Part shown: positions 1,033 through 39,483 of the stretch, piece by piece | Position numbering within the stretch: the stretch's first letter is position 1 | Layout: every line of letters starts with the position of its first letter | Source of the DNA: Closterium sp. NIES-65 | Lineage: Eukaryota > Streptophyta > Zygnematophyceae > Desmidiales > Closteriaceae | Direction of reading: 5' to 3' | Assembly (NCBI GenBank): GCA_948144175.1 | Contig: CANXME010002008.1 | Location: forward strand, 248,001 to 312,000 | Length of the DNA: 64,000 nucleotides | Notes under the pieces: generated by a model | The model's input: the letters and a program-made list of their open reading frames with translations, nothing else | Databases searched by the model: none | What the model was told of the DNA's origin: nothing | Program-made: the position numbers and the translations under genes

Positions 1033-4000
1033 TCAGGAAGAGAGCAAGTGAGGCAAGACAGGCACAAGACCCAGCTGGGTACAGAAGCGCTGATGGTCAC
1101 AAGGCGCGAGTGCCTTGGTGAACACATCAGCAGTGTTGGCCTCAGAGGCCACGTACGCAAGTCGCAGCTGACCACGCTGCTGCAGCTCACGAGCAAGGAA
1201 GTAGCGAAGAGCAATGTGCTTCGTTCTGTGCTCCAGACGCTGCTCTCGACACAAGGCCAGCATGGCCTTGTTGTCTACGTACAGCACTGGAGGAGAACGA
1301 GGCGGCTCTCCAAGGTCAGTCAGCAGGTAGGTGAGCCAGCGAAGCTCCTGTGCAGCCATGGCCCCGGCGTAGATCTCAGCCTCACAACTGGAGCCGAGAA
1401 CCGAAGACGAGCGAGTAGACCGCCACGAGACAGAGCCGGAACCAAGGCTGAAGGTGTAACCCTGTGACGACCGCTGCGTAGCCTGGTCGTCAGCCCAAGA
1501 AGCGTCCGCGTGGCCCGTAAGGACCACTGGACTCCGCCCTCCAAGCACTAGCCCCATGCCCGACGTACTGCACAGGTAGCGCAATACCCTCTTCGCTGCA
1601 GCCATGTGCTCAGGTCGGTGTCTCCCAGGAGCAACATAGCGTGCAAGGATGCTCAGAGGGTATGCAAGGTCAGGTCGTGTGCAGGTCATCAGATACATGA
1701 GGCAGCCAACAAGCTCTGCATACGGGCCACTCGACTCTACGGACTCATCCGAAGGCAGAGCTGAGAGCGAGTGGCGAGTAGGCAGAGGAGTGGCCTGAGG
1801 CGAGGAGTACGTGAAGCCGAAGCGCTGAAGGACCTGCTGCACCATGTGTGACTGAGTCAGGGTAATGGTGCGGCGTGCTCTGTCCCGAGTGATCTGCAAG
1901 CCAAGGTAGCTGCGCAGTTCACCCAGGTCTGTGCACGTGTGTCTCTTCAGCAGCTCGGACTTCACGTAGGCGAGTCCAGCAGTGTCCGCTGTGGCAAAGA
2001 CCAAGTCGTCGACGTACACGAGGATGTAGAACGGCGGCAAGGAAGTGTCGGTGCGAAGAAACAGCGACGGGTCAGCAGTGGAAGGAGCAAACCCAAGAGC
2101 CGCAAGCGTAGTCCTCAGTGTGTCGTGCCACTCACGCGGTGCCTGGCGGAGACCGTAGACTGGCCGTCGGAGGCTCCACTGGGTGCCAGGAGGGAAAGTC
2201 CCAGTGAATCCAGGCGGACGGCGCAGCCAGATCTCCTCGTGCAGGCTACCCTGCAGGAACGCAGTGCTGAAGTCGAGAGAGTGAAGCTCGTAGTCGCGCT
2301 GAGCGGCAACGTGCAGCAGCACCCGAAGAGTAGTCATCTTCGGAGTGGGAGAGAAGGTCTGAAAGTAGTCAACTCCCTGCCGCTGACTGAAGCCACGAGC
2401 GACGTAACGCGCCTTGAAGACAGGCGGAGAGCCCGGCGGCAGCTTCACCCTGAAGATCCACATGCCACTGACGATGTTCGCCCCAGGAGGGGGAACTGCG
2501 TCAACGTAGGTGCCTGTGGACTTCCAGGAAGCCATCTCTGCATCCATAGCTGCCTGCCACTGAGAGGAGTAGGGACCCTCTACAGCCTCCGCGTAAGAAC
2601 GCGGAGTCGGGATGTCTAGTGCATCCGGGTCTCCCTCAGGGGCAAGCAGTACAGACGCGAGATGAGGTGAAGCAGCCGCTAGACACTGTAACTCCTCCTG
2701 CCTGTCCTCTAGGACGTCCGTGCCAAGAGCACACTCACCCCCGACGGACGGAGGACAGACAGACGCAGACTCAGCAACAAGACTAGCAGCGTAGTCTAAG
2801 CGACAGCGAGCAGCAAAGTCGACAAGCTCAGTGAGTAGGGCAGACGCAGCAGAAGACTCGAAAGAAGGGTCAGTGACCACAGTAGCAAGGAAACGCGTGA
2901 CAGTAGGACTGGCAGCACGCAGAGAGTCCGACGCAGGGTCGGCAAGCGCAGGAAGAGAGGACGCAGGAGGAGAAGGCAAAGGGGCACGCAGAGGAGCAGT
3001 GGACGGACGCAAAGACATCTGGTGCGTGCCAGGGACAGGAGGAGGACGCTGACGCGAACCGCGACCAGTAGCGCGAGCAGGACGAACAGGCGACGCAGGA
3101 CGAGACGCAGGCTCACGACGCTCAGCAAGACCTCCAGTAGGACCAGTGTAAGGAGAGGGAGCAGGTAGTGGAGAGGAAGGCTCCAGCAGGGATTGCGACT
3201 GGACAGGCGGTGGACTCTCTACTGGAGGAGAAAGACCAAGAACCTGTTGCAGGAGCGGAACGAAGTACGGTCGAGGCCGCTCAGCAGCTCCAGGCGCAGC
3301 AGGGACAGCTCCAGCACCCTCAGCGACAGCACCAGGGCCACCAACTCCTCCAGCAGCAGGACCAACAGCAGCAGTCTCAGCACCAACACCCTCAGCAGCG
3401 CCAGCTCCAGGAGGACCCGCAGGCCCAGCAGCTCCGGGAGCGGCAGCACCAGCACCCCTGTCAGTCGAAGAAGGTCCAGCTCCAGCTCCAGCAGCACCCC
3501 CAGACTCAGCAGCACGCCTCCAACGACGAGCGAACCACTCGCGCAGCTCCTGTGGAGAGAGAGGCTCCCGGGGAGGCTGAGCAGCAGGAGAAACCCCAAG
3601 CGCAGCAGCTCCAGACGCAGCACCCCCAGGCTCAGCAGCTCCAGACACAGCACCGCCAGACCCAGCACCTCCAGTGACAGCACCCCCCGGCGCAGCACTC
3701 CTAGGCTCCGCACCCTCCGCACTAGCACCCCCAGGCTCAGGACCCCCAGCAGCAGCTCCTCCAGGCTCAGCACCCCCGCGGACAGCACCCCCAGAGTCAG
3801 CACCCCCAGGCTCAGCACCCGCAGCAGCACCAGAGTCACCAGTAACCTCGACCGGGTCAACGGCGTCTACCTGGGACACACCTGAGGGAGCAGGAACCTG
3901 AGGGGGAAGGGGGTCTACCGGGGGGGGAACCGGCACAAGGAAGTCCGGGGGAGGGGGGAGGGAAGGAGTGCGGTAGGGGAAGAGACGGTAGAAGGGGACC

Positions 4001-6969
4001 GACTCGTCGAACGTGACGTCCTGGGAGGACAGAACACGACGAGAGGAGGGGTGGTAGAACTGCCACCCTGGGGCGTCAGTGGGGAAGCCAAGGAAGACAC
4101 AGGGAGCAGCACGAGGGGACAGCTTGTCCGCAGACAAGTCGCGGACAAACGCCCGAGATCCCCAGACACGAAACACAGACGCATCGCCAACCTTCCCCGT
4201 CCACAGCAAGGCTGGGGACATCGCAGGCCTAGAGACCCGCGGGTGAAGGTTGAGCTGATGCGCCGCGTACCTCACCGCAAACGGCCACAGGAAATGGGGG
4301 GCAGCCGCATGCATCATGGACGTACGAGCGACATCCATGACCATGCCAATGCGGCGCTCAGCAATCCCATTTTGCTGTGGTGAGTCCGGAAGCGTGAAGG
4401 TCTGGCGGATCCCCCGTGCACGACAGTAGTCTCGCAGAAGGCGAGAGGAGAACTCTCCGCCTCTGTCCGAGTGCAGACGCAGAACAGGAAAGTCAGAGCC
4501 GAAGCTCTTCCTGAGCTGGAGACGAGCCTCGCGGATCTAGTCGATCAGCACCTCAGTGACAGCACCCTTGCTGCGCAAGGGGAGGACTGTGGTGTAACGC
4601 GAGTAGTCGTCAACCACCAACAGGAAGTAGCGCTCGTAACCCTGCCCACGGACGGGGGCCGGGCCCCACACATCCATGTGAAGCGTCTTCAGCGGAGCCT
4701 CTGTCGGGGGGAAGTGGGAGGAGTGAGGAGTAGCCCGGAGGCGACCCTCGACACAGGGGACACAGGAAGGCCCTGGCCCGGGGGGGGGAGGAGGGAGAGA
4801 CCGGGGAAGACCAGAGACAAGGACACGGGAAGCCATGCTCCGAAGACGAGCCAAGGAGGGGTGGCCTAGACGGTGGTGCCACAGGAGAGTCTCGTGAGAC
4901 AGGAGGCGACAGGAACAGGGGGCAGACTCAGGACCTGACCGGGACGCAGCAGCAAACACCTGACCTGACGCAGCTACCCGACCAGACACAGGGACAGGAG
5001 GAGACGAAGTGGTCAGGGTGTAGAGACTCGACCCCGGCCGACGCGAAAAGGTGGCCAGGTGTCGGCCTGTGTCTGCGTCCGTGCAGTGAGTCACTCGCCG
5101 CCTCGCAGGAGTGAACTGGTGAACCCCCGCATCCTGTAGGTCCGCACCACTCACCAAGTTCGTAGAGAACGAGGGAAGGTACAGACCAGACAGGGTGCCC
5201 GAAGGGGCAGCCGGACACGGGAGGACAGTGGAGAAGTGAGACAGGACAGGACCCCCAGAGGGGTCAGCAAGGGAGACCGCAACCGGTCGGCCAAGTGGCG
5301 TGAGAGTAGTGCGGTCTCGAAAGAAGGAGCGCGAAGCCCCAGAGTCAAGTGTGAAAGTGAGGGAGGACGAGGGCGACGCAGTACCTGAGAGCGCAGTCTC
5401 ACCAGCACCTGAGAGCGCAGTCTCACTAGTACCTGAGAGCGCAGACGCACTGGCACCTAGAGCAGCAGCCTCACAAGTACCTAGTGCAGCAGTACCAATG
5501 CCCGGGTCGGGCTGGAAACACCGGTAACCCTCATTCTCCTCACTATAAGTCACAGCATACATAGCAGAAAGGATAGCATCAAAATCAAGATCAAAGATCG
5601 CTACACCAGCCCTAAGGAGCTCATCCCAGCGAGGGATCTCACTAGCCCCGGGGAACTGCTGACGCCAAGCGTCCGTCAGGCGGCCAAAGCAGCGCTGGGT
5701 GGAGTGGGCACCCCCACACTGCTCACCCGCGCGGTCGCCGGAACGAAGAACGTAGGCGCAGGGACCAGTACCCCCACCCCTCTGACGCGCAGCGTACCAC
5801 TCACGAAGCTGCTGAGGCGGAGGGATGTCCCGCGAACGCTGCTGCTGCTGCCGCTGCGAGCGCTGGCCACCACCACCGCCGCTCCGCTGCTGGGTACCAC
5901 CACGACCAGCTCCACCTCCTCCACCACCACCGCCTCCTCCGCCGCCGCCTCCACCGCCTCCACCTCCACCGCCTCCACCTCCACCGCCTCCACTCCCGCT
6001 GCTGCCTCCACCACCACCGGTGCCACCACCACCACCGTCTCCGCCGCTGCTGCCACCACCACCACCACCACTACCACTACTCCCGCCGCCACCCCCACTC
6101 CCTCCGCCGCCCCCGCCGCCACCGCCACCGCCCCCTCCAGCTCCGCCCGCGCCCTTGCCCCCCTTGCCCTTGCCAGAGCGACGTCTCCCACTAGGGGCAG
6201 ACGCCGCGCCGACCGACTCAAGACCAAGCAGGTCGGCCGCAGCAGCAGAGGCAACAGAGGGCAGCAGGGGGGAAGGAGAGCACCCCTCAAAGATGGGGGT
6301 GCGAGGGTCACCACGAGAGGCACCGACAGCGACTATGCTCTTCTCCGCTGCGAGGAGGGCCTTCTCGAGGAGGTCGACGGTGAGAGTGGTGGGACAGACT
6401 GCGAGAAAGTGGTCCCTGACTACGCGGAGGGAGTCAGGGAGGCGCGCGACTACGTAGTAGAGAGTGATGTACATGGGGGGGGGGTTCTTAGCGCAGAACT
6501 CAGCAGGAAGGGCGGCGCGGTAGCGAGTGTCACTAGTGCGGAGGTGCGTAATGAGGTCAGCGACAGTGGGAAAGGCAGAGAGGTCAGGAAAGAGGTAGGG
6601 AAGCATGAGACGGCTCAGTGCAGCAGTGGCAGGAGAGGAGTAGCGCGCAACTACAGCGTCGTACAAGGTCTGAGCACTCTTGTACTGACTAAAATGCGCA
6701 CGCTCAGAGGTAGGGAGGTGGCGACGCACAGCAAGACGTGCAGCAGCATCGCGGGTGGCCCACTGAGAGCGGACAGTGGGATCAGCATCGGCAGCAGGAG
6801 CAGGAGAGGCGCCAGAGGTGAGGTCAAAGAGAGAAAGGCTGTCAGCTCTGTCGCACTGTAAGAAAAGCTGAAGGTCATCTAGCCAGACCTCAAAATCAAT
6901 GGCGCGACCCTCGGCGTCAAAGGCTAGGACACTAGGGGTGGCCATGATGACGACAGCGAAGCAGTGCAA
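1033..6969 (-). pseudogene. Copia A Gag-Pol polyprotein region
   Basis: Copia order read from right to left: a Gag region with a long Gly tract and an extended Cys-His knuckle; an aspartic protease with a DSGAS active-site motif; the GAG-pre-integrase HHRLGHPS block; an integrase core with VVDDYSRY and HSDRGGEF; a Gly/Ala pentapeptide-rich linker; reverse transcriptase with YVDD (near 2010); and RNase H with the DASWADD and SCEAEIYA blocks. Most of the region reads openly, with about one break. It is close in sequence to the coding region of element D. Confidence 0.92.
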
Positions 6970-11050: not shown

Positions 11051-11225
11051 CCGTCCCTACCTGAGTCAACAAGCACACAAGAAACACTCAATGATAAGTA
11101 TTGTATCATGGCATACAGCTTCATAATAGGTATTGATAATCATCCAAAGCCAGCATTTGCACACTACTACAAAATCATAAAGGCTGTACATCATAGCACA
11201 CAAGCATGTGAGTCCATGTGAATTT

Positions 11226-12359
11226 CTATTCAACACTAATCCCTAGTCTTTCGCTTTTGTTTTGGCCACGCATCACCCATCCCCTTGCAGCAGCCACAAT
11301 TCTCACAATTGCACCAGGCTGTCTACCAGATTCCACAGGCTTGATTTGAACGCGCTCCACACCTCGCCTTGTATCCATTCCCCTTGTTGCCTTTTGAGGC
11401 GCCTCAAAAGCAGGCTTGGTTTGAACGCGCTCCAGACCTCGCCTTGTACTCATTCCCCTTGTTGGCGTTCCTACTCGCGCACTCAGTGCCTCTGCAGCCT
11501 GCTGTGCCTCCACAACAGCCAAAGCTGCCCCGCCTATTCTTGATCGGGCATCGTCAATCCACGAAGGATCACATGCCAGTTCTGCGTCAAGCCACGAGCA
11601 GCCCTCGCACGACACAGTAGCAGTCACATCACTGTCTCGCGAGCGTGCGTGAAAGCATCTCTTGCATCTCACATCCTTATCCTCCTGGGAGTCAGTCAAA
11701 GAATCAAAGGCATATGAGGAGGACCGGTAGAGGGTGGAGGAGACGGAGTGGCGGCGCTGAAGGCCGTCTGTGCGCAAGTCACTGGCGTCAGCAAAGGTCT
11801 CTGAGTGGCTTGCGCGAAGGGACGTGGAACCTTGATTGGTTCTGCTGCATCTTGAATCTCCAAGAGACGAGGAAGAGCCTGAGCGGTGAGAGGCAGAGTA
11901 GTGAACGGAAACATGGTACGTTGATTCCGTGTCACCATCCTCTGTCAGCGATCCGGGTGAGGTGGAGTGTGTGGTGTCCTCCTCTAAGCGCTGAGCTAGA
12001 CGGATCCAAACGCTGAGATCACAGTCGCTTGAGATTTGAGGCGTGGAAGAGAGGCGCCTCAAGCACGGCCGATCCGCCTGCCCCGCGTTGCGGCCTGAAA
12101 AGGTGGGGTTGCGAGGAGGGAGCTTCGAGGTCTCTAAGCTCTTCCGGGCCTTGGGGCCCTCCGCGCCGCGACCGTCACGATGACGGAAACTGCTGTCATG
12201 ACTGTCTTGCCGAGTATCAGGGCGTGACGAGAGAAGCACGGAGTCCGTAGAATGCTGTCTCTCGTGCGTGTTTTCAGCCATCCCGATTATTTCTACGCTG
12301 TCTGTTGCTAGCATGAGGTGGACGGGAGAAGCTGATATGCTGATTGACGGCGTTCTCAA
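11226..12359 (-). CDS. Unknown host protein with CxxCSW/ACDP module (377 aa)
   Basis: This single-exon frame belongs to no family I recognise. The N-terminal 220 residues are Ser-rich and look disordered. Two Cys pairs follow: CKRC at about 232-235 and CEGC at 251-254. The second opens a 46-residue module with CSW, ACDP, W, DDARSRI and an Ala-rich helix-like tail (AALAVVEAQQAA) up to about 296. The same module occurs in the frame at 13543-14352, whose other parts are unrelated, which supports real coding and a shared origin. After the module there is an internal duplication of about 25 residues (around 298-345). FEAPQK joins its two halves and is encoded by a perfect 20-bp palindrome. The start could instead be the Met at residue 27. 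The paired Cys might bind zinc; this is inference. Confidence 0.6.
   Translation of the reverse strand: MRTPSISISASPVHLMLATDSVEIIGMAENTHERQHSTDSVLLSSRPDTRQDSHDSSFRHRDGRGAEGPKARKSLETSKLPPRNPTFSGRNAGQADRPCLRRLSSTPQISSDCDLSVWIRLAQRLEEDTTHSTSPGSLTEDGDTESTYHVSVHYSASHRSGSSSSLGDSRCSRTNQGSTSLRASHSETFADASDLRTDGLQRRHSVSSTLYRSSSYAFDSLTDSQEDKDVRCKRCFHARSRDSDVTATVSCEGCSWLDAELACDPSWIDDARSRIGGAALAVVEAQQAAEALSARVGTPTRGMSTRRGLERVQTKPAFEAPQKATRGMDTRRGVERVQIKPVESGRQPGAIVRIVAAARGWVMRGQNKSERLGISVE
11336..11465. repeat. Direct 55-bp duplication with a palindrome at its junction
   Basis: The left arm (11336-11390) and right arm (11411-11465) both begin CAGGCTTG and continue through TTTGAACGCGCTCCA. They differ at about five positions. 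The 20 bp between them (11391-11410) read CTTTTGAGGCGCCTCAAAAG, a perfect palindrome. Arm plus palindrome is 75 bp, so the coding frame of the surrounding 377-residue protein is kept. Confidence 0.9.
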
Positions 12360-13542
12360 GCTTGTTCAACTGAACGAGGTGGAAGAAGTGACTGCAAGGA
12401 TTGAGAATCGAACCCCTTTTCCATTTTCGGAGCTCAACACCTGCGCTTGCAAAGCAAGCCTCACGCCATTGCGTCCGCACATCCATTTCCGCAACGTGAT
12501 TCGACGACTCAGTTAGTGCATCTACGTCGGCTGGTTAGTTGAACTGAAAGTGAAGGATCTGATTCTGGCCACCTCTACGCACGAGTTCATCGGCCGGTCG
12601 CGTCACTGGAAGTGATTCGGCCACGGCGCTGACATGGTGCTAGGACAGCCAGAGCCGCACATTTCGTCACTGAGGGATCTGTGCAATCCTTTTCTCGCTC
12701 TAGCAAGGTTCGCTCATTACGAGCTGTATGCGTCAGGAAGAGCAGGGTCCGCACAATGTGCTGCAAGCATCATAAAAGCTAGTGCTATTGACTTAATCAC
12801 GTGAAGCGCATGCGCTGCTCAGGACAAGCATTTCTGGCTTGCACTCCTAGACCAGACTAGGGGAGGGGACTTCTCTACCATTCAGATACCCTGTAAGGAG
12901 CAAGCTGTCAAAGCCGACTTCAGTGTCAGGCGCTGTGTCGTTGAGCTGTGATGCTGGTGGTGCTGACCTCTCTCCGCCACGCAGGTTGAATCATTGCTTT
13001 CATCCCAGCCCGTGCTATTTTTCTCGTGAGCCGCATTCTTCGTGGTGGCTGACCTGTGAGGCTGGGTCGTCGTGTGGGTGGATAGGGAAGGGAGCTGGGA
13101 AGGAAGGCAAGTCATTCGGGTGCGTGTGTGTTGTGTGGTCATCGTGATTGGAATGGTTGAATGGATGGGAGCAGCGCAACTGTCCGCTGGATGACGGTAC
13201 CAAGGCACGGCATTCAAATTATGTGGAGGGAGGCTGTCGCTCGCTGGCTGAGGTGGCCGAAGAGCAATGGTACATTCGTGCTCGTGGTTGCATTGTAACA
13301 GCTTCGCAATATTATATTCCATAAACCGAATGTCGTACATTCTAGCAGCAATCCTACATATCATATTATTATTATATATTCTTGTTCCATTAAAAAAAAC
13401 ATCTTCTCCAAAAAGGTTGCACCACCCAGCGCATTTGACAAGAATGGCATAAGCCAATATATATATAAAAAAAAAACCACAGTTACTATCACGTGGTTGG
13501 GCGCATAAACGGAGCTTGATTATACTTGATGTGGGTGGGCGC
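12360..13542. other. No gene recognised; AT-rich patch at 13290-13480
   Basis: This lies upstream of the 377-residue frame and downstream of the 269-residue frame. It contains an A/T-rich stretch with TATATATA and poly-A (about 13457-13480). A weak tRNA-like segment near 12398-12475 was rejected. Short open frames here lack recognisable motifs. Confidence 0.4.
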
Positions 13543-14352
13543 CTAGCTTGCCGGGTTACGGCGCCACAACCTCGCCATACTCCCGACGCAAATGCGGAGC
13601 TCGCTGTTTACTTTACGGATCTGAGGCAGCCGCCGCGTGCTGTGAATCCGTTCCGCCGTGCTGCTGCGATCCCCATCACGCTGCTCAGAAACATTAGATC
13701 GGCCCATGGAGAACCACGCGTTGCGGGACTTGCCCCGAGGCGTGGGAGCTTCTGAGGCGTCTTGAGCTGTAGTGGCGGCTGGGGATGGTTCGCTGCGGCT
13801 GAAGCGGAGGGAGGCATTGGCGGAGTAAGGAGTCGGACGCTCTGATTCGTAATGCGCCGAGTCTGCCCGCGCGCTCAGCTCCACTGCCGCCTGCTGCGCC
13901 TCGACGACCGCCAGAGCCGCTTCCTTGATTCGCGACCGCGCATCGTCAACCCAGACGGGATCGCATGCCATGTCAGCAACCCTCCAGGAACAGCTCGCGC
14001 AGAGGTCGTCGCCGAATATCGACCGCGAAGTAGCGAGGCCTCTGGAAGTTGGGGAGTCGAATAGCTCATCCTCGACGGAACACTCGTCGGAATCGTGATC
14101 GAAGCTCGCGGTGTAACAATCTTTTTCATCGCTGCCGTCGAGAGAGTTCGATGAAGGTGTGGTGCGAAGCTGACCAAATATTCCCGTGTTCAACGAGTCA
14201 TGGCTTCCTCTTGACTGGCTTATCGTCTCTGCGAGGTTTCCCGAGCTGCAGTTGCTGCATCTTCTGAAATCGCCGAAAGCCTGCACTGATGCTGAAGGAA
14301 GGTGGTTCTCGAAAATTGTTCGCTGCTCCCGAGTATAGTCGAAGTAACACAT
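13543..14352 (-). CDS. Unknown host protein with CxxCSW/ACDP module (269 aa)
   Basis: This single-exon frame is paralogous to the one at 11226-12359 through one module only. CASCSW (118-123), DMACDP, WVDDARSRI and EAALAVVEAQQAA (to about 156) match their counterparts at nearly every position, while flanking sequence is unrelated in length and order. An earlier Cys pair (RCSNC, 31-35) also has a counterpart in the relative. The rest is Ser-rich, with acidic residues between 85 and 100, and a basic tail (SMARLWRRNPAS) ends the protein. No signal peptide or membrane segment is seen. Function is unknown; a small Cys-rich binding module inside an otherwise disordered protein is the plainest description. 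Confidence 0.6.
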   Translation of the reverse strand: MCYFDYTREQRTIFENHLPSASVQAFGDFRRCSNCSSGNLAETISQSRGSHDSLNTGIFGQLRTTPSSNSLDGSDEKDCYTASFDHDSDECSVEDELFDSPTSRGLATSRSIFGDDLCASCSWRVADMACDPVWVDDARSRIKEAALAVVEAQQAAVELSARADSAHYESERPTPYSANASLRFSRSEPSPAATTAQDASEAPTPRGKSRNAWFSMGRSNVSEQRDGDRSSTAERIHSTRRLPQIRKVNSELRICVGSMARLWRRNPAS

Positions 14353-15628
14353 GTTTAGAAATGAGAACTAGGACGAAGTGGATAGTGAAGGTTTTTGAGG
14401 TAGCCTGGAAATGAGAGAAGAGTTCGAGGTAGTGGGACTTCTTCCACCTGTCTGCGTTGGAGTGATGAAAGGACGGAGGGATTGGACAGAAGATGGTCCT
14501 TGTTTGCATGAATTCTGGGATTACCGCACTGAAAGGACGGTCCGATGTCCACCGGGCTTATCCGCAACCAAGGTTGCGTTGAGAGGACGTGGCGGGGAGA
14601 GTGACCTTTCTTCGAATTGGCTCCCCCCCGCATCGGCTTGGTGAAAAGCACCACACCTTGGGAATGCTTTGCTGCTGATTGGCTTCTGTCGTGCTGGCGT
14701 AAAGGTTCACGTGGGAACACCGCAAGTAGGGGGAAAACAGCTGGAAAGCGACACAAAAAAAGGTCAGATTGCTCACTATGCGATGCGATTTGAAACAAAT
14801 TTTGTGCGAGGCCCACGCCCTCTACGTTCCAATCCACCAAACTAGGCACACAGCTGTTATGACGGCGAAGCGCCATACGTTGGGACTGCTGTCACTTCTC
14901 ATGATTGGGCCAGGAAGTGCTGACGCTGCAATGCACCATGTGACGCGTACATCAAATCGCAAACAAGCGACAAAATTCTTGAAAGCGAGAGCCACCTCAG
15001 CGTTCTTTGAGAGTCAAACCCCGACACAGTGAAGTTCTAACAGAGAATGTATATCTCACTGTTGGGGTACCCAACTTTTTCGGGAATCACGGGCACGGGC
15101 CCAGATACTGGCAGCGTTTCTGGACTGGAAACAAGGTCTGCGAAACTGCTTGATTTGCGAAAGAGGCGATGCTTCGTGTGACCGTGTCGGCATCTGTTCG
15201 TGCGGAACAGATCAAGCTTGTCGCAAACGTCGTTGTGAAGCGAGTGACAATCTCCCAACCGAACCCAACATCCATACTCGTAGAAGTGGTGATGGTCGGT
15301 CAACCTCTGTACAGTTATTGTGACGCTTGTGGTACACCAAAGACATCAGAACTACTCCTCATGCGGTACAACTATTATGAGGTTTTGCACAAAGACTCGA
15401 TAATCGTTACTCATGCTAGCTAACAAGCTGGTTCCCTATCATATCAACATTAATACAGAGGCAAAGTGAACGGGACTAAAGGGAAGCCACTGAGCTTGAC
15501 TTGGGTTTTGTTGTGGCCCTGCATAATCCTTTGTGGGTATGCCGGGGATGCATCACACGGTGCCCACATTCCCCAGATGCTACTGCTAGGGAAGGGCTAA
15601 AACAGCACCAGATTATGCATAGCTTGAC
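14353..15628. other. Intergenic, no gene recognised
   Basis: This lies between the start of the 269-residue frame and the 3' end of the FAS1 gene. Several short frames (up to about 170 residues) exist on both strands but none shows family motifs. The part nearest 15628 should hold the FAS1 3' untranslated region. Confidence 0.35.
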
Positions 15629-17046
15629 TCAGACGGAAGGCGGTACTAGCACGGAGTCGGTGCCATGAATGTACATGTCCTCGCCCTCATACATGTCTGG
15701 TAGTACCACTCTAACGGGTATATCGCCCTTCCCCTTGAACGCGAGCTTGGACGAATTAACTTTGGACACTTTGGTGACGAACGAGCCTTCCATGGTGGGC
15801 AGGCGCGTGTTGATGGGTAAAGCTTTCAGTTGCCACGCCTTGTACGCGCCCCTGATCGCGTGGTACGTGAACATCCGCGCCACCTGCGCATGAGCGACGG
15901 GATTGGAAAAAGAACACGAAAGAGGAGGTGTTCTTCCAAAAGACATCTCCGTGCTGGTCAATTTCGGAGCTCGGGTGTTACTCATTCGCTACCTGGTTAA
16001 GTCACAAACAGTTTGTCTCTAGAGCATGCTGCATCAATTGTTGACTGCTACCAAGTTTGTGGTCGGTGGAACAAGAGGCGCGAACCAGCGCCGCTCCAAC
16101 GTATCCGTGCGGATGTAGCTGCTGTCTGTACAGTTTCGTTCAGCGTTGTTTTTATAATTGTGAACCGTCATTAATGTTGAGGAATGTTCAGGGGGTATAC
16201 TCATGAGCGCATGGACGCGCATGGTGATTCGAAAAGGGTGCGCAGATAATTCTCAAAAGCTTTGACTGTTGACGAAAGCTTAACGACATACCTGATCACT
16301 TCTGAACGTGGCGATGGACATGGCGAAAGCCGCCGCGTTGACGGGGAAGAGCAGCGTCGCGTTCTTTAACACGGCGACTCTGCCAGTGTCTGCAGCCACA
16401 GCACAGAGGAGGACCATAGTCGCGAGGTGGGGAATATGAAGCAGGTGCACGGGATGGATCAACCGGAATGCTGACATTGGACGCGGTGTGTGGCACGCGG
16501 CGGCAGCAAATTGAATAACTACAGTGTTGGGTCCGCGCTGTCGCTAGACTCTACCGTACCATTATTCGAATTATCGTCTGGCGGCGCGTCTGGGGGCGTA
16601 TCGTCGCTGTTCGTCTTCGGCTTGGCACCGCCGGTCGAGTTGCTCTTCTTCCCTCCAGGAGGCCGCACATCCCCGCCGCTTCCTCCGCCTCCACCTCGAG
16701 TTTTCGACCCTCCGCTGCCTCCATTCCCTCCCGCTCCTCCCCTACCCGCCCCTGGCGCAGAAACCGGCGGTGGGCCTTTTCTCACCCCTGTGCCGCCCCC
16801 AGAGCCCCCTCCACCGCCCACACTACCCCCTGGTTTCCGCGGAGAGCCTGCACCGCTAGTGGGCTTTATCGGGGATTTTGCTACAGATTTGGGCTTTGTC
16901 GGAGACGTAGCGTTAGTCGGTCTTCCGGAACGAGTGGACGCTTTCAGTGGACTGCCTACTAAATCTTCTCGCGGTTTCATCTCAGCAGAGGCACAAATGA
17001 TGAGCAGAGATAGTGCTACTAACAGAAGGAAAGGTTGCCGAGACAT
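15629..17046 (-). CDS. Secreted fasciclin-like (FAS1) protein, 306 aa, 3 exons
   Basis: Inferred exons on the minus strand are 16560-17046, 16292-16470 and 15629-15883. Their phases agree (1, 0) and the borders are GT-AG (donors GTACGG and GTATGT; acceptors TCAG and GCAG). The product starts MSRQPFLLLVALSLLIICASA, a clear signal peptide. A Gly/Pro/Lys/Ser-rich stretch of about 140 residues follows, then one FAS1 domain (about residues 175-305). Its first half reads HLATMVLLCAVAADTGRVA and TLLFPVNAAAFA. Its second half has the YHAIRGAY block, LPTMEG, and the terminal IHGTDSVLVPP corresponding to the usual HVIDRVLLP. FAS1 proteins are extracellular or wall-associated adhesion proteins. No GPI-anchor signal is visible, since the protein ends at the domain. 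Confidence 0.85.
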
Positions 17047-17916
17047 GACTGTTATGAGCGCTTAAAACACGTGGCGCGTAAGTTTCTCTACTTGTATAGT
17101 TCAGGGAATGAAGACTCTGGACTAGAAACCTTTTTCTGTCAGATAAACTTCAACTTTCGAAAGGAATCATCACTTCTGGTGCAACTATTAGGAAATGGTC
17201 ACTCGATTTGTTGGAGGCATTGAGTTGGCAGCACCGACGGTGCAATTGTTTGTGGTGCACTCACCAACATTTCAGAAAGCGAGTGCGCGTCTGTATGCGA
17301 GATTCGTATGACAGAGATACTACGGTCGTCGGCCACTCTCAACGTTCGTACTCGTCAACGGGACTTCGCATCATGAGTGACGACAACAAAATCGAACCAT
17401 GTAATTTCGCGTGCGGTCCGTATATTTGTGAAGGCGCCCTGGCAAAGAGTGACGAGAACGTTTGAGATGGCATTTTGGTTGCCGGAGTACGGACCATCAA
17501 ACTGAGCGATGCGAGATTCGTCACAAATGAATGACCACCATACACAGCTAATGGATATATGAGTTAGACAGTATAATCCATCAAATAAAAAAAACAGGTG
17601 CTACCTTTACATTACAGTCTAACCTTTCATTCCAGAGACACGACTGAAAAATCTGAGAGTTTTGGTACGTAGGCTAATGTAAGATGAACAGTTCTGCGTG
17701 CTAGAGAGAGACAAGCCAAACATGTCAGGGAAACAGCACGGATGTGCTTTTAACGAGCCTTCTGCTAGTAACTGCAATTACAGAGGGGAACATGTTAGTA
17801 GGGATTAACCACATTCATAATATAATGCAGCAGCTGAAAGGTACTTGGCATGCTTGCGAACGACCCGTATATAAATATTTGCATGCACAACCAATTACCT
17901 GTATCCATACCCGGCT
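17047..17916. other. Spacer between FAS1 and endosulfine genes
   Basis: About 870 bp. It should contain the FAS1 promoter and the endosulfine 3' untranslated region. It is AT-richer than the genes and holds no recognisable coding sequence or repeat. Confidence 0.5.
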
Positions 17917-18932
17917 TCATTGATCAGGCTCTGATAGCGACGACCTCCGCGCTGGGAATGGTTGATGCGGGGTGGGCTGAATGGACACAGCAGCGAGAGA
18001 GGCAGTGGCGGGTGACGATCCAGATAAGAAGCTGATGAACATACTGAACATTCTGGTTTGCAGGCATGTATAAAAAAGGGGGAATAGCAGCTGGGAAGAC
18101 AAACAATTCTAAGGAAAGACAATGCTTTAGGAGACGTTGGCCAGGTCAAGAGCCATATATTGATTCAGAGCTTTAAGTGGCAACTCACCTCTAGCTTTGG
18201 CTGTAGACCCCCCTCATTGGCTGCTGGAGGCTTAACTTCGCCACCTTTTTGCTGCAAGAAGACAATTGGCCACATGTGGAACAATTCTTCATCAGTGCAA
18301 GGACCAAGAGGAACAAAAACAAAGAAATTGTGGAGACAATGAGCCAAACCAATGGCATTTCTGGGAGGTGAAGCAGTCTTTGAGATGTCTTTGCTGCTCC
18401 AGGGAGGTTCAGATATAGAGGGATAAGGTTGCTGACCTTTTGAATTGCCCACTCGGCTGAGTCAAAAAAAGCTCTCTCATGACCCTGCAGGCAACGAACA
18501 CCCATCATCGTATATCACAGGATAACCAGTGTAAGAAAGAGGAAATAATGTGTGAGACTAAAGGACAGTGAGCACCGGAGATAAGGCTAAGGGTTAACAC
18601 TTGTGATTGCATTACCTTCGAAAGAAGCCCCTTTTTCTTTGGAAGCGCTCCGCCATATTTCTTCTTCAAGCGCGCCTCCTATACACGTGAGGAAGTATGG
18701 AAGGAGGACCATTGTAGAGCAAGCACGCGCGGGAAATTGGGTAGGGGGGCGAAAGAAGGTTAAGAAACGTGGAAAAAGGGAAGAATCATCACCCAAGCAA
18801 GCATTTGAAGATAACATAATCCATTGTAAGAGTTGTTTTGAGAGCGCAATTAGTGGACTTACAATCGGCAGTAGTTCAAATTAGGAACGAATCAAGTACC
18901 TGCTCTGCCATAGACAATTCTTGGTCCGCCAT
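17917..18932 (-). CDS. Endosulfine (ENSA/ARPP-19) family protein, 88 aa, 5 exons
   Basis: Inferred exons are 18900-18932, 18616-18678, 18437-18484, 18189-18251 and 17917-17976. All introns are phase 0 with GT-AG ends, and exon lengths are 33, 63, 48, 63 and 60 nt. The product begins MADQELSMAEQ and contains LKKKYGGALPKKKGLLSK, then GHERAFFDSAEWAIQK, and ends PTPHQPFPARRSSLSEPDQ. This is the plant endosulfine layout: KYGG-LPKK, HERAFFDSADWAL, LQPTPHQ. The family inhibits PP2A-B55 after Greatwall-type phosphorylation of the Ser in FDS, here Ser41, so a cell-cycle or nutrient-signalling role is expected. The central motif reads FDSAEW where animal members have FDSGDY. The start is the first Met of the 11-codon exon; transcripts could reveal an upstream exon. 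Confidence 0.88.
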
Positions 18933-19717
18933 GGACTCCGAAATCAAAAGGCTCCAAGAGTGTAGTGAAAATCCAAAATTGTAGGGCGTATATGTGTTCA
19001 GCGCAGAAAGAAACCAATAACAGAAGTGCAAATCGTCGAACAACGCAAAATACCCTTCGGTCTAATCTCCGAACAGAATGTGACACCGCGCGACGTCCTT
19101 AGCACAGGCTCGTAAAGTCTTCAGCTCCAATCGACACAGCTTTTGCTAGCCTAGGTTTTTCGAGAAACGTCACACAACTGTGGATGTTGGAACACAGCTG
19201 GTGCTGGTGTGGGGCGACAGCTGGGAAAGATTACGATGGTGGGAGGAGTTGGTGGGGGTGTGAAGGGAAGGGGAAAGCGAGGTGCACCTGACGGTGTTTT
19301 GATCGCTTCCGTCGGTGAACACGGTTGCTGATTGGTCAATACGGCAGCCTGCCCGTTGGCGAATCGGAAAGGGTATGTTCGCGACTGAAAGTAGGCTATG
19401 ATTGGCAGCGAAACGAATGCTGAGCTCGTCAGCTGGTGACGGGCTGACAGTTCCACTGTGAGGAACCCTTGGGTAACTGTTTGCGGTGGATGCTGGGTTC
19501 TGGTGATGATGATCCATCACTCGGTTAGATCCGTTATGTGAAATCCGTATGTACCATTGGTACCTACACTAAATCATTGTCAGCTTAAGAAGCCAGTTAT
19601 TATGCATCTGTTACAAGGTGTGAAAAACTAGGAAGATACAGTGGTCACCATGCAATGACCATCGGCCACATGTATGTACACAAGAATCAACGAACATCGA
19701 GATCAAAACTTATCTAA
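18933..19717. other. Spacer between endosulfine and mannosidase genes
   Basis: About 785 bp holding the presumed endosulfine promoter (next to 18932) and the mannosidase 3' untranslated region (next to 19717). Short Pro/Ser/His-rich frames on the minus strand show no family signature. No repeat is seen. Confidence 0.5.
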
Positions 19718-22700
19718 TCAATCATCAAAGTGAACCACAAAAGTGCGAATCTCCATTGGTCCAAGCTCCACAATGAAAGGTCCGTCTGTGGAGTCAAATG
19801 CATTCCTCTGACCAACTCCATGGATGCCATTTGTTGACTCCACCTCCTCCTCAGTACTCCATTTCATTGGTGGCCGCATCTTTGAGAGCTTCTGATTGGC
19901 CATCAGGCTGAGCTCAGTTACCTTCTCAATCTGTCCAAATGTGGCAGCAATAGACTTGACTTCAGAAATGCAACAAAGAAGAGGTAGGTAGTATTCACGA
20001 TCATAAAAACAACTCCTTACCTCTTGGTGGGCAAAGAGCCTGTCAAGGTCCACACGAGCAGGCTGCGAGAGAACAGGGTCCTCATTGGCCTGTGACGGAG
20101 CAAGCCATAACAGGGTCAAGGGACGTCAGGGGAGGCAAGATAATGAGGACGGGCAATGGTTGACGTAAAGGGTGTTGGGTGAGAAGGAAGAGGGATAAGC
20201 AGACAGCCGGTGAAGAAGTGGGGGTAGACCAAGTGGGGTTTGGCACTGGGAGGGCAGTGCAGGGGCGGATGGAGCTCACTTGATAGAGATGGGCGAGTCG
20301 CAGCAGCACCTTGTACTCATGCACCTCCTGCAACAGAGGTAAGAGGGGAGAGAGTGAGAGAAACAGGGTGCGTGTGTGTGTGGTGCAAAGGGGGACATTT
20401 GACATTGCAAGGGAGGTGCCTCATCGTGTATTACTAGTGTACGCTGAACACAGGGTCAGTGTGACAAGGGCAACTGAGAGAGCATGATGGCACGAGGGGG
20501 CTGAATGGGCCTGGTGGTACCTCGAGTGTGATTATGGCAATGTTCTTCGGAAGCTCGTATGCGCCCTCCTTGCTCGCCCTCTCCCCACCCTTCTCACCCC
20601 CATCCACTGCCTCTGCATCCTCCTCATCATCGTCGTCCTCCTCCTCTCCCTCTTTCATCTCTTCTTCCTCCTCATAACCTTCCTCCTCCTCCACCTCCAC
20701 CTCGTCTTCCCCTCTTCTACCCTCAGATTCTTTCATTGCCCGCCTCCCTTCTCCGGCAAGCAGCATTGACAGCATTGGCTCCGTTGACTCCTCAGACTTG
20801 CTCCTCTGGGTGCCAGAGAACTGCCACGTGTACAGTCCACCCTCAGCTGCCAGGTCATCCTCATTCTGCACAAGTCAACAACAGTCAGCCGCATTGATCC
20901 CAGTCACGCCCAGACAACCATCAATATGAACCACCAGTGGCAATCAACCCCGGTCAAACCCATTCAAGCCCCCATCATGTCCCATCAAGGCAGTCAGCGC
21001 CAGTCATCCCCACCCAAGAGCAACAAGCCGCACACACACAAGAGTCAGCAACAAAAGGGAGCATTGTCAAGTACACAGACAGGCAACTTAGAGAGCACGG
21101 ATGCTGCTATAAGCCAAGTGAGGGGGCGGGAGGGGGAATGTGGATGCGGATGAAATGCGCCCCCCCCATGACCCATGTCACAACACCCAAGGCCTCAGCC
21201 GCAAGGCGCATGCGTCGCAACCACCCACCTCGACAGCAAACGCCACTTGCAGCGGAGAGAATATCCGTTGAACATTCCCACGCCGCCACTCCGCAGCCGC
21301 TTCAACTCCCTCCTCTGCCCCCTTCCCTGCCACCAACCCCTCTCGACTCCCTTCCACTCCTCCCACTTCCAACACACCCCCCTCGCTCCGCCCATGCGGG
21401 TGTAGCCCAAAGCGCAGAGTCCCAGAGACCACGAGGCCCATGCAGGTTGGCGGTTGCGGTTGTTGCACCTCCTGTGCCCCCTCCTGTGCCCCCTCCTGTG
21501 CCCCCTCCTGCGCGCCCACGCACACGCGCTCGTTGAGCGGCTCTGCCACGCCGCGGTGGTCGTCATGCAGCAGGCGGCGGTGCAGCATCACCTCCACCTG
21601 CCCATCTGAGAGGCTGGTCGCCCCGCTGGGTCGGTCCACCAGCACTGAGAAGTCTGTGTTGTTGTCGTGCAAATAGATGCCCGCGTTCAGCTGGTGGGGG
21701 AGAGGGCGAGTGGTGGCAGGCGGGGACGGGAGGGGGTGGGACAGGGAGGAGGGGCATAGGGAAAGAAGGAACTGGTGTTGAAACGCTGTTGTACCGAGGA
21801 CTGGAATGGTGTGGCAGGTTGGCTGGCACCTGGGATTGCAGTGAACAAAATACCATCCACTCACGGGGTAGTAGTTGCCAGCAGCAGGCTCTGTGACGGT
21901 GAGGTTCCAGTCGGGGCGGAAGTTGCGCTTGCGCTGGATGAAATCGCGGCCGTTGGAGTCAGTGTAGAAGGTGGCGTTGCTGGCGAGCGAGGAGGAGAGG
22001 CGCAGCACCACCTCCTTGCCAAAGCCATCGTCTATGGGCACCGGTCCCACCTGCGATGAGCAGGGGGCACGTGGGCATGAAATGGGAGGGTGTGAAGGTG
22101 ATGATGTTGGTTGTTGCTGTTGCTGCAGAGGAAGGAAGAGAGGCGCAGCACCACCTCCTTGCCAAAGCCATCGTCTATGGGCACAGGGCCCACCTGTGAT
22201 GGGGCAGAGAGGGATAGGGGACAAAGGCAAGCGAAGAGACGGTGTGACGAAGGCTTTGGAATCACTTGAGAGGCGCACCACTGCCTTCCTGCCAACGCCG
22301 TCCTCTATGGGCACCGGGCCCTCCTGTGATGCAAAATGTTAAGTTGAGGAGGCGAGCAGGCAGGGGATGAGAGGGTGCAAGGGCGAAGGTTGTGGCAATG
22401 CTGCTGGGGGAGGAGGAGAGGCATGCCACTACATGCTTTCCAAAGCTGGCGTCTAGGGGCACTGGCTTCACTTGGCAGAGTGGGAAGAGGCAAGCAGGAT
22501 GGAGAGGAATGGTGTGACGAAGATGGCAACGAGGGGCAAAGGTGAATGGATGTGGCAGTACAGGCCTGGACTGGAGCAAAGGTGTCTGAACTGGAGAGCA
22601 AAAGAAGAGGTATCGTGAAACACGCGGCCATTGTGTTACGGCGTGTCACTGCTTCCCCAGGCCTTACATCGTTCACCGCACCCATAGCACTCAAAGCACT

Positions 22701-28700: not shown

Positions 28701-31700
28701 TTGGATACCACACCATAAACATGCATGAGCACATCACACCAAACTAAGAGACCAAGTTAATGCAGCGGGCGAGGATATATAACAGCAGAGCCCAGCAAAA
28801 GCACACGAGGCCCAATTCACACAGGCATTACCACGGAACCAGAGGATCAGGAACCGGTATGGGGAAGGCAGCCTGGGGGCACACGATGCCTCAGAGAGAA
28901 GATTAGATGCTCTGTCATGCCCCCCTGTGATCGCCACAGGGGGCTCCGATGACAAGAAATTCACTCATCCCTGGCAGCGGTACTGGCCTCTTCACTGGCA
29001 GCACCCACTTGACTTCACGCTTCCTTGCTTCCACTCAACAGCTCCACAGAGCCACACAAGAGGACAGGAATGCACAGACGGGATTCAAGACAGGCGTGCA
29101 CGATTGATTCTCCCCTCCCCGCGCTCACCTTTTGAGGCGCCTCAAAAGACAGGCGTGCACGATTGATTCTCCCCTCCCCGCAACGCTCACCTTCACGGCC
29201 CCGCGGTAGAGCCGCAGAGTGTAGTCGTCGTTGACGTGCTGCTTGGCCATGCCGTGCCGCTCACATTCAAGGCGTGTCAAAAGCAGCCCAGTCCCCGCAA
29301 CGCTCACCTTGACGGCCCCGCGGTACAGCCTGATGGTGTAGTCGTCGTTGACATGCTGCTTGGCCGTGCCGCTCACCGAGTCGTGGTGCTGCGCCACCGC
29401 CATCGCCTCCTCCAGCTCCTCCACCCCCCACTCCCGCCCCTCCACTCCCACACCCGCCTCCTCCACTCCTCTCCCCAGCCTGCTCCGCCCCACCAGGGTC
29501 TCCACTTGCCTGGCAGCCTGGCACGCAGGAAGGTTGGGCGAGAGGGGAGGCGGAAGAGGGTCACGGCAAGAGGGAACAAAGTGGACGGAAACGGAGATTT
29601 GCAGGACAAGTTGAGGGAGCGTTTGAGCTGCAAGCATTGAACTCGCAGCAACGGCATGCCGTATCAAGTGCAAGAACAAACGAGCCAGTCCAAGGAAAGG
29701 AGGAAACATGCAAGAGATGGTTGACGGGCGGCGGGGGCGTGCACGAGCGAGTGGGAGGGGCAGGGGCGGGGTGGGGAGGACAGAATGGGGCAGGGGCGGG
29801 CTAGGGAGGAACGAGGGGGGGGCAGGGGCGGGCTGGGAAGGGCAGGGTAGGGCAGGGGCGGGGCGTACGAGGAGCAGCGCGCTGCAGTGGCGCACGTAGC
29901 GTTTGAAGGCGGGGCGGGAGGAGAAGTACCCCGTCCAGTAGCAGTGCGGACAGTCCGCATAGCTGCATGCAAGGGGGGGCGGAGGATGGGAGCAGGACAG
30001 GGAAGTAGGGAGCGAAACAAATAGCTGAACATGTCAACGAGAGATGAGTAAACAGAGCCGCAAGTGAAGACGGCAAAGCGAAGTGGGGAGGGGTGGGGTA
30101 GGGGGGTGGGACTGAAAGATTCAAGACGATAACAGTACATGGGGGAAGGGGATGGGGGAAAGGGGAGGGGGGAAAGGGGAGTGGGGGAAGGGGAGGGGGG
30201 CAAGAGGAGGGGGGAAAGGGGAGTGGGGAAGGGGAAGGGGGGAAGGAGGGGAAGAGTAGCTCACGGGAAGAAGTCACCCGTTTTGACGGGCCAGGACTCG
30301 TTGGCGCGGTGCTTGGCGTCCACATAGATGGAGGGCGTGGAGTAGAAGGCGTTCACACGGCCGTCACGGTTGACGTAGTGGATGAGCTTGTCCATGTTGC
30401 GGAACCACGTCACCGCGTTGCTGTATGCAAAGTCGTCGCCCATCGTCCACATGATGTGGTTTGTACGGTAGCTCTCTGCCTGGTAAGGTGGTGCATGGGT
30501 TTAGGGCATGGGGGTAGGGCATGGGGTGTGGTGCATGAGGTGCGGTGTATGGGGTGTGGTGCTGGGGTGTGGTGCATGGGGTATGGTGCATGGGAAGTGG
30601 TGTATGGGGTAAGGAGGGATGTGGCGCATGGGATGTGGTACATGGCCCCACCCCACGGCCATTCCACCCCAAACCCAACCCCACCCCCAACCAGTCCCAA
30701 ACCCCCCACCTCGACCCACCCTCCCCCCCTATCCTGCGTTCCCTCTCCCCCCCTTACCTGTTTGAGCGCAGTTTCCACGAACTTGTCCACGCGCTCCTGC
30801 ACATTGTAGTCATATAGCTCAGGGTCGTCCTGTTACAGGGGGGGAGTTTGAGGGGGGGGGGAGGAGAATGAACCACTACACGGACGAGATCAGAACGAGA
30901 CGTCCCGCACACCCATGGGAGCGTAGACACAACCAGCATCACACTCCCAGGCTGCCACAGCCAGCAGCCAGCCCAGCGCAAGCTCTCTCGCGCGCATCTC
31001 ACCTGCACGGGCGGGTCCCAGTTGTTGGTGTCGTAGCGGAACGAGTCGGGCGGCAGGTAGTGCACGTACAGCCGCCCGCCGAACAACTCCGCGCGCTCCT
31101 TAAGCGTGTCGGACGCGCGCCACACGAACTCCGCCGTGCGCGCGCGGTACCGCGCCTCGCTGTCCTCGTAGTCCGCGCGCGCGAAGAACACCGCGTCAAA
31201 CCCGCCCTGTTGGGGGGAAAGCGGGCAGGGGAGAGGAGTAAAGGCCGAGGTGAAAGGTGAAACAGTGTACTGGTGGAACAGTGCTGTCCTCGTAGTCTGC
31301 TCTGCGCGTGCGCAGAACACCGGGCTGGCCTGTTGGGGGTAGGGGGAGGCGCGTCGGGAGGGGTAATCGTTTCCCCTCGAGTCATGCTGCACCAAGCAGT
31401 AACCAGGAAAACCTAGAAGCGCCCAGCAGAACCCAGCAGCACCGAGCAGCACGGACCTTGCGGAACCCACCATGGCGGAGATGAGGTAGCCCTGCACGGC
31501 GGAATGGCCGAAGGGGTCGATCTGCCAGGCGACGCGCGGCACCTGGCCGAACTGGCGGCGGATGAGGCGCAGCCCCAGCGACATCTGGTGCACCATGTCC
31601 GTGTAGTGCGTCGCCGCCTCGTCGTGCATGCACCACCCGCCGTTGCTATGGGAGGGGAGGAGGGTGTGTGGAGAGAGGAGAGGATGAGGCGCAGGCCGAG

Positions 31701-37500: not shown

Positions 37501-39452
37501 GGCAGGACCCTGAGGGGGGAGGGGGACTACCGGGGGGGGACCTGGTACCAAGAAGAGCGGGGGCGGGGGGAGGGACGGAGTGCGGTAGGGGAAGAGGCGG
37601 TAGTAGGGTACCGACTCGTCGAACGTGACGTCCTGGGAGGACAGAACACGTCGAGAGGAGGGGTGGTAAAACTGCCACCCAGGGGCGTCGGGGGGGAACC
37701 CCAGGAAGACGCAGGGAGAAGCACGAGGGGACAGCTTGTCCGCAGACAGGTCGCGAACAAACGCCCGAGATCCCCAGACCCGGAACGCCGACGCATCGCC
37801 AACCTTCCCCGTCCACAGCAGGGCTGGGGAGGTCTCCGGTCGAGAGACCCTGGGGTGGAGGTTGATCTGGTGCGCAGCGTAACTGACCGCAAACGGCCAC
37901 AGAAAATGGGGAGCAGCCGCATGCATCATGGACGTACGAGCGACGTCCATGACCATGCCAATGCGGCGCTCAGCAATCCCATTCTGCTGTGGTGAGTCCG
38001 GAAGCGTGAAGGTCTGACGGATGCCTCGCGCACGACAGTAGGCACTCAGGAGGCCAGAGGAGAACTCTCCGCCTCTGTCCGAGTGCAGACGCAAAACAGG
38101 GAAGTCAGAGCCAAAGCTCCTCCGAAGCTGGAGACGAGCTGCGCGGATCCAGTCGATCAACACCTCAGTGACCTCACCCTTGCTGCGCAAGGGGAAGACT
38201 GTGGTGTAACGCGAGTAGTCGTCAACCACCAGCAGGAAGTAGCGCTCCTGACCCTGTCCACGGACGCGGGCTGGGCCCCACACGTCCATGTGAAGCGTCT
38301 GCAACGGGGCCTCTGTCGGAGGAAACTGGGAGGAGTGAGGGGCAGCACGCTGGCGCCCCTCGACACAGGGGACACAGGTGGGGCCAGGGCCCGGAGGAAG
38401 GGGAGGGAGAGACCGGGGAAGACCAGACACAAGGACTCGCGAGGCCATGCCTCTGAGCCGAAGCAGAGAGGGGTGGCCAAGGCGGTGGTGCCAGAGGAGG
38501 GTCTCGTGAGACAGACGACGGCACGAGCAGGGGGCAGACTCAGGACCAGACCTGGACGCTGCAGCAAACACCTGACCAGACGAAGGGACCCTACCAGACT
38601 CAGCACCTGGAGGAGAAGCAGTGGTCAGTGTGTACAGGCTCGACCCTGGCCGACGTGTAAACGTAGCCAGGTGGCGACCTGTATCCGCCTCCGTGCAGTG
38701 GGTCACCCGCTGACGAGCAGGGGTGAACTGGTGGACACCCGCATCCTGGAGGTCAGCACCACTCACCAAGTTCGTCGAGAACGAGGGGAGGTAAAGACCA
38801 GTCAGGGTGCCAGAGGGGGCCGCCGGACACGGGAGGACAGTGGAGAAGCGAGACAGGACAGGCCCCCCAGAGGGGTCAGCCAGGGACACCGCAACCGGCC
38901 GACTCAGCGGCGTGAGAGTGGTGCGGTCCCTAAAGAAGGAGCGAGACGCTCCAGAGTCAAGGGTGAAGGTGTGAGAGGCCGAAGCCGACACAGTACCTGA
39001 GAGGGCAGACTCACCAGCACCTGAGAGCACAGACGCACTGGCACCTAGAGCAGCAGCCTCACTAGTACCTGACGCGGCAGTACCAATGCCCGGGTCGGGC
39101 GGGAAACACCGGTAACAGTCATCCTCATCACTACCAGTCACAGCATACATAGCAGAGAGAATAGCATCAAAATCAAGATCATAAATAGCTACACCAGCCC
39201 TAGACAGCTCTCCCCAGCGGGGGATCTCAGCGGCCTCCGGAAACTGCTGACGCCAGGCGTCGGTCAGGCGGCCAAAGCAGCGGCGGGCTGTGTGGGCGCC
39301 TCCACACCTCTCCCCTGCACGGTCACCGGTGCGAAGAACGTAGGGGCAGGGACCAAGTGCACCACCACGCTGACGCTGCAAGTACCACTCACGGAGTTGC
39401 TGAGGGCCGGGGACGGTGCGAGAGCGCTGCTGCTGCTGTGGCTGCTGCTGCG

Positions 39453-39483
<31 letters not shown>

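Follow-up and report, generated by a model that had tools for sequence, protein, structure and literature searches.

A short palindrome found genome-wide at the joints of local direct duplications in Closterium sp. NIES-65

Two palindromes within local duplications

The stretch of DNA considered here, hereafter the window, comprises 64,000 nucleotides of the genome of Closterium sp. NIES-65 (G000:C1710:248001-312000), from an assembly of 874,075,685 bases in 2400 contigs. It carries several Copia-type retrotransposon frames (RVT_2, rve, gag_pre-integrs) at 1033-4344, 34579-40578, 46838-52432, 56767-58695 and 61702-63711, and an alpha-mannosidase-like exon. Tandem repeats include a long array of about 97 copies of ACTCACATC (22707-23576), an array of 37 copies of GGTTTGAGGTGCA, which resembles the TTTGAGG half unit (23889-24365), and a 235-bp repeat with about 97% matches and an internal GTGCCACGTGGCAC palindrome (27574-28167). 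Comparison of the window with Rfam gave no match at the gathering threshold. Across the whole genome, the GRAS family gave 98 matches at exon level; this family occurs in land plants as well as in their closest algal relatives and is not known from chlorophytes.

Two identical copies of a perfect 20-bp palindrome lie in the window, each between direct repeats and each at the position reported in the initial annotation (Table 1). The arms at the first site, described there as 55-bp direct repeats, do flank the palindrome; they are imperfect copies of 54 bp (50/54) rather than exact 55-mers. In the ungapped alignment of these arms, the inserted stretch corresponds to 11390-11410 and the arms lie 75 bp apart, that is 25 codons, in frame. 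The proposed FEAPQK reading is indeed seen in the 377-residue minus-strand frame, flanked by two copies of a TRRG.ERVQ.KP stretch, and a comparison of this frame with Pfam returned no family at E 0.001. At the second site, the arms starting at 29089 and 29148 are identical over 34/34 bases at a distance of 59 bp. The overlapping, more diverged duplication has in its spacer a sequence that is tentatively regarded as a decayed palindrome, with 5 mismatches out of 18 bases as counted by eye, which places it outside the 4-mismatch limit of our scan for decayed palindromes. The window holds no further match to the 20-mer at up to three mismatches, and 100 shuffles yielded none.

Table 1. Coordinates of the palindromes, duplicated arms and open frame in the window
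Feature	Position	Strand	Remarks
Open frame, 377 aa (possible gene)	11226..12359	-	Holds the in-frame duplication with the FEAPQK linker
Left arm, first duplication	11336..11389	.	54 bp, 50/54 identical to right arm
Perfect palindrome CTTTTGAGGCGCCTCAAAAG	11391..11410	.	GCGC-core type; same letters in the region's second copy on C1953
Right arm, first duplication	11411..11464	.	Ungapped alignment
Left arm, second duplication	29089..29128	.	34 bp exact, then gapped up to the palindrome
Second palindrome copy	29129..29148	.	The homologous stretch of C1953 lacks it and one arm
Right arm, second duplication	29148..29190	.	Base 29148 common to arm and palindrome
Left arm, overlapping more diverged duplication	29175..29254	.	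Duplicates the end of the alpha-mannosidase-like exon and, as judged by eye, the splice-donor region of this exon
Tentative decayed palindrome ATTCAAGGCGTGTCAAAA	29265..29282	.	In the 29255-29291 spacer of the more diverged duplication; also missing from C1953
Right arm, overlapping more diverged duplication	29292..29371	.	Partner of 29175..29254

Abundance of the palindrome and its association with duplications

The genome contains 30,327 exact occurrences of TTTTGAG-N4-CTCAAAA, against 4 of the reversed control. At up to two mismatches, the 20-mer itself occurs 21,742 times, TCGA and ACGT cores included, and its reversed control not once; the initial estimate that its recurrence is far beyond chance is thereby supported, and the search of the whole genome finds the 20-mer massively enriched. 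The TCGA-core form TTTTGAGTCGACTCAAAA is present in 13,080 copies (control, 0), and the mixed core TCGC was found 63 times on one strand and 69 times on the other (132 TCGC/GCGA; control, 0). Random joining of mixed halves was considered and rejected, given the rarity of mixed cores (132 vs 13,080 TCGA).

Copies were read in a sample of 264 kb made up of the window and twenty 10-kb regions (L numbers), which lie on the first contigs listed and were picked for holding the GCGC 20-mer, so that the palindrome density in them is biased upward. This sample holds 122 TTTTGAG-N4-CTCAAAA palindromes with TCGA (53 copies, 37 of which belong to a single array in L024), GCGC (49), ACGT (6), AATT (5) or other (9) cores. 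The palindrome initially annotated is thus one of four core types present, and the core is self-complementary (TCGA, GCGC, ACGT or AATT) in 113 of the 122. The next commonest 7-mer found with its complement at the same spacing reached 10 occurrences vs 122, and no second palindrome family of comparable number appeared among the palindromes tabulated from the sample. In the small numbers available, a GTCG extension beyond the 18 bases is partly kept; the outer bases of TCGA copies are mostly alike on both sides, as in the symmetric GAC...GTC, and the outer extension of GCGC copies is mostly longer on one side. The palindrome folds as a hairpin of 7-8 bp (-3.7 to -5.0 kcal/mol).

Outside this genome, matches to TTTTGAGKCGMCTCAAAA were found in 2 viral and 26 prokaryote stretches, at one place each. 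A self-complementary core occurs in 12 of these 28 and a flanking repeat in none; on these counts the foreign copies were taken as chance, and a spread of the palindrome to viruses or prokaryotes was rejected.

For the association with duplications, palindrome copies were grouped into 53 clusters, one of which, at a locus edge, was left out of the abutting and single-best-repeat tests (n = 52). Flanks of 150+150 bp contained a local repeat scoring at least 15 at 48/53 clusters, at 0/247 swapped flanks and at 185/493 random positions. The last count reflects a genome rich in local duplications, and as it made this first control too lenient, an adjacency-constrained score was used. A repeat abutting the palindrome was then found at 47/52 clusters vs 80/500 random positions at a score of at least 10, and at 42/52 vs 69/500 at a score of at least 12, with 1/296 for swapped flanks at both scores and 0/28 for the foreign chance copies. 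Flanking by direct repeats is found at most clusters examined (47/52) and, together with the enrichment above, supports the initial interpretation; clusters failing adjacency number five of 52 at the loosest score and ten at score 12. A cruder test that counted the best-scoring repeat alone yielded weaker figures, with 19 or 28 of the 52 clusters passing vs 29 or 39 of 600. Arms measure 15-96 bp at the 42 clusters scoring at least 12, with 120-bp flanks searched. No target motif was apparent by eye at the arm boundaries of 16 aligned sites. The palindrome-at-duplication pattern is genome-wide, and its enrichment is far beyond chance.

The association was also counted from the side of the duplications, in the window and the regions chosen for the palindrome, leaving out duplications with the selection 20-mer in their spacer. 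A palindrome with up to four mismatches was present in 11/21 spaced duplications with exact arms, 21/48 with arms 93-99% identical and 20/110 with arms 80-93% identical, against a background of 30/1341. Since the share of palindromes falls with arm identity, palindrome and arms seem to be born together and to decay together. Of 216 spaced duplications in a looser listing, a perfect palindrome was present in 31 and a half or decayed motif in 40, which leaves 145 with neither; a sizeable share of the local duplications is unrelated to the palindrome.

Homologous copies and complex sites

Positions 11180-29460 of the window have a homologous copy on another contig (C1953:189893-209729). The two copies differ by several insertions; one place shows 481 matching bases without a difference, and at another the identity is 95-98%. 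Six sites were compared between such copies, namely the two window sites and four sites in three stretches picked for near-identical arms. In the alignment at 29129, window positions 29111-29291 (181 bases) have no counterpart in C1953; they span the palindrome, one arm and the more diverged duplication with its decayed palindrome-like spacer, and C1953 keeps a single arm. At L025 8560, C1907 has a single 39-bp target and no palindrome, and C21 reads target-palindrome-target with 38/39 arm bases alike; the usual outer bases GTCG of the palindrome here overlap the target by 2 bases (CG). Judged from match coordinates and not from letters, L034 9130 has one extra 86-bp unit in C1835 vs C43. The palindrome is also present in the C1953 copy of the 11391 site (481/481 bases identical) and, again by match coordinates and not letters, in the copies found for L034 9316 and for L019 8799, where the comparison took in three contigs. 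Palindrome and second arm are thus jointly absent at two of six sites, the number of units differs at one and three show no difference; a palindrome with a single arm was found at none of the six.

On the evidence of these alignments, palindrome and duplication seem to arise together, and the empty copies would represent the ancestral state. The initial suggestion that the palindrome may promote local duplication finds no direct support here, the palindrome being seemingly made together with the duplication. The differences between homologous copies at the compared sites indicate a process that is recent or continuing. These homologous contigs may be duplicated segments and not alleles, since haploid Closterium samples hold many duplicated genes according to excerpts of the genomic study of these algae (PMC10407611).

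Several sites are more elaborate, with inserts longer or more complex than the palindrome alone. At L019 3656-3732, three arms are joined first by a GCGC and then by an ACGT palindrome, and the difference in core type indicates that the two joints arose separately. At L032 4395-4481, two arms enclose a 51-bp piece, and both joints of this piece carry a palindrome. Outside this locus the piece is matched best, at 90% identity, by an exon-like stretch of the same contig at a distance of 203 kb, and the 240 bases read around that stretch hold no palindrome. The insert at L037 4325-4424 has several repeated 12-bp half units (CNGCCTCAAAAG-like) between two palindromes, and around L020 8770-8821 a longer inverted repeat, as judged by eye, encloses a palindrome. 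A 37-bp unit of L025, consisting of the palindrome and 19 further bases, is dispersed over many contigs and often arrayed. It corresponds to a dispersed satellite, seen at L025 8788-8910 and on C354, C2399, C983, C836, C1673, C526 and C2019, each unit of which consists of the GCGC palindrome and GTCGTCTCATGTCTCGCGG; this satellite may be a longer donor form. At L025 7310-7400 and at L032 4507-4620 an ACGT core is set, by eye, in the same longer sequence, with CCAATCTTCATACACGTGG or its complement to one side; this may be a larger palindromic element. Outside perfect palindromes, 110 half units were counted in the 264 kb, many of which are decayed palindromes (by eye) or belong to tandem arrays. 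No longer element ending in a half unit was recognised among these 110.

Origin of the palindrome-bearing duplications

We consider it rather probable that the palindrome is an inserted unit, placed at a staggered break whose fill-in duplicates the target. The chromosome would be cut with a stagger of about 15-96 nt, and a palindrome of 18-24 bp would be set between the cut ends in the form TTTTGAG-NCGN-CTCAAAA, or its AATT counterpart, plus a few partly conserved outer bases. Once the overhangs were filled in, the target would stand in duplicate, its copies joined by the palindrome (A-P-A'), and later unequal exchange or renewed hits could build arrays (A-P)n. The observations that bear directly on this model are the enrichment at duplication joints, the joint absence at two of six sites and the rarity of mixed cores; from them we infer insertion instead of loss, a staggered cut with fill-in, and a donor that is either a template or a short DNA. 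Against insertion at any single site, recombination between the arms could delete the palindrome together with one arm. The self-complementary cores and the rarity of mixed ones suggest either a ready-made palindrome or two identical tails joined via the 4-base core. An RNA template, a transposon or captured DNA may be the donor; neither a donor nor an enzyme for the insertion was found in the sequence read.

A tentative proposal, conceivable yet not the one we would expect to hold, is that of a built-in repair linker. The cell, a selfish RNA or an enzyme would furnish the two ends of a staggered break with identical short tails, which would be joined via their self-complementary 4-base core, leaving a palindrome at every such joint, including those of foreign filler. 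The 113/122 self-complementary cores, the 132 mixed cores vs 13,080 TCGA copies and the double joint at L032 4395-4481 are hints in this direction.

The insertion model also has an RNA-donor version, target-primed or telomerase-like copying, to which we assign a rather low likelihood. A reverse transcriptase would extend the two 3' ends of a staggered cut with copies of a short RNA, and these cDNA tails would anneal by their self-complementary core (twin priming). Such copying finds a precedent in telomerase RNA copied at breaks, for which twin priming is discussed in the portions of PMC2246262 at hand. It would fit target duplications of varying length (arms of 15-96 bp), the self-complementary core of 113/122 copies, the partial presence of the outer bases GTCG and the repeated 12-bp half units at L037 4325-4424. 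However, four core types would need four templates, and no longer element with the same end, no RNA and no enzyme was found. The reverse transcriptases in the eight window frames searched are of the Copia type (RVT_2), and no longer members with a reverse transcriptase or an RNA tail were recognised in the 264 kb.

That the palindrome is a MITE-like cut-and-paste element reduced to its two terminal inverted repeats, with the transposase encoded elsewhere, appears doubtful. MITEs and foldback transposons are non-coding, inverted-repeat elements, dispersed and subject to presence/absence variation. The fixed palindromic sequence, its high copy number, the empty copies and the symmetric outer bases of TCGA copies (GAC...GTC) would suit such an element, and the whole unit, being a perfect palindrome, does consist of terminal inverted repeats. 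Cut-and-paste families, however, make a fixed short target duplication, whereas the arms here span 15-96 bp, and no full-length element was found among the 110 half units outside perfect palindromes in the 264 kb. The Closterium palindrome further differs from MITEs and foldback transposons in having no interior, a variable duplication length and no partner transposase seen.

It is very improbable that the palindrome came first and that its hairpins then promoted slippage or tandem duplication of the neighbourhood. The palindrome can indeed fold as a hairpin, and it occurs in arrays whose copy number differs between two homologous copies. Slippage nevertheless predicts many palindromes without an adjoining repeat, seen at 5/52 clusters at the loosest threshold, and a duplicated P+A unit with two palindromes instead of A-P-A'. 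Nor does the joint absence of palindrome and arm at two of six sites, with the polarity inferred above, place the palindrome before the duplication, and self-complementarity, found in 113/122 cores, is more than a hairpin loop requires. The scarcity of clusters without an adjoining repeat and this joint absence disfavour slippage; of the three origins initially put forward, a tiny mobile palindrome and a templated insertion during repair remain. A sequencing or assembly artefact, which a short and identical palindrome might bring to mind, can be dismissed with near certainty as the palindrome occupies the same place in separate homologous contigs (481/481 bases at one site, three contigs at another) and exists in decayed forms and four core types.

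Insertion of a palindrome with duplication of its target can be set against several known systems. Fungal mitochondria harbour mobile GC clusters and double-hairpin elements, which are palindromic, dispersed and tens of bases long; located in organelle DNA, these have a short target duplication or none. The Closterium palindromes, by contrast, lie on contigs of an 874-Mb assembly and have long target duplications. In plants, paired nicks or staggered breaks followed by fill-in repair give rise to local direct duplications, which to our knowledge carry no fixed palindrome at the joint. In rodents and primates, interstitial telomeric sequences were inserted at double-strand breaks, some with target duplications and microhomology, as described in parts of PMC2246262. 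The Closterium case would likewise involve a fixed short sequence placed at breaks, target duplication, microhomology and a comparison with a putative ancestral state, but its insert is a palindrome and not a run of telomeric repeats, and the clusters examined carry a duplication as a rule (PMC2246262, in part). The four core types likewise speak against the insert being a telomere repeat. Telomerase RNA copying, as far as the sections consulted of PMC2246262 extend, is the nearest precedent among the literature found. The introners of Amoebophrya, according to extracts of PMC7789003, have inverted repeats of 8-20 nt at the intron ends and direct repeats of 3-5 nt, with no transposase gene inside. 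They resemble the Closterium palindrome in being small and repeated and in combining both kinds of repeat without a transposase gene of their own, whereas the palindrome has no intron body and direct repeats of about 15-96 bp (PMC7789003, extracts). At 16 aligned sites the inserts measure 18-50 bp and contain no intron body, and an open frame runs through the insert at 11391. A literature search by sequence and by topic, with topic matches judged by title, returned no description of such a palindrome element, and the main text of PMC10407611 contains no word beginning with "palindrom".

New sequence arises in part from short local duplications, whose mode of formation is as a rule guessed at from the scars left behind. 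Extensive copy-number variation is reported, in excerpts of PMC10407611, for Closterium, which is related to land plants. If the palindrome is template-copied, it would point to a repair or mobile mechanism not found in the literature searched. Since the joint signature can be counted genome-wide, one duplication process can be measured for its rate, its length, its choice of target and its decay.
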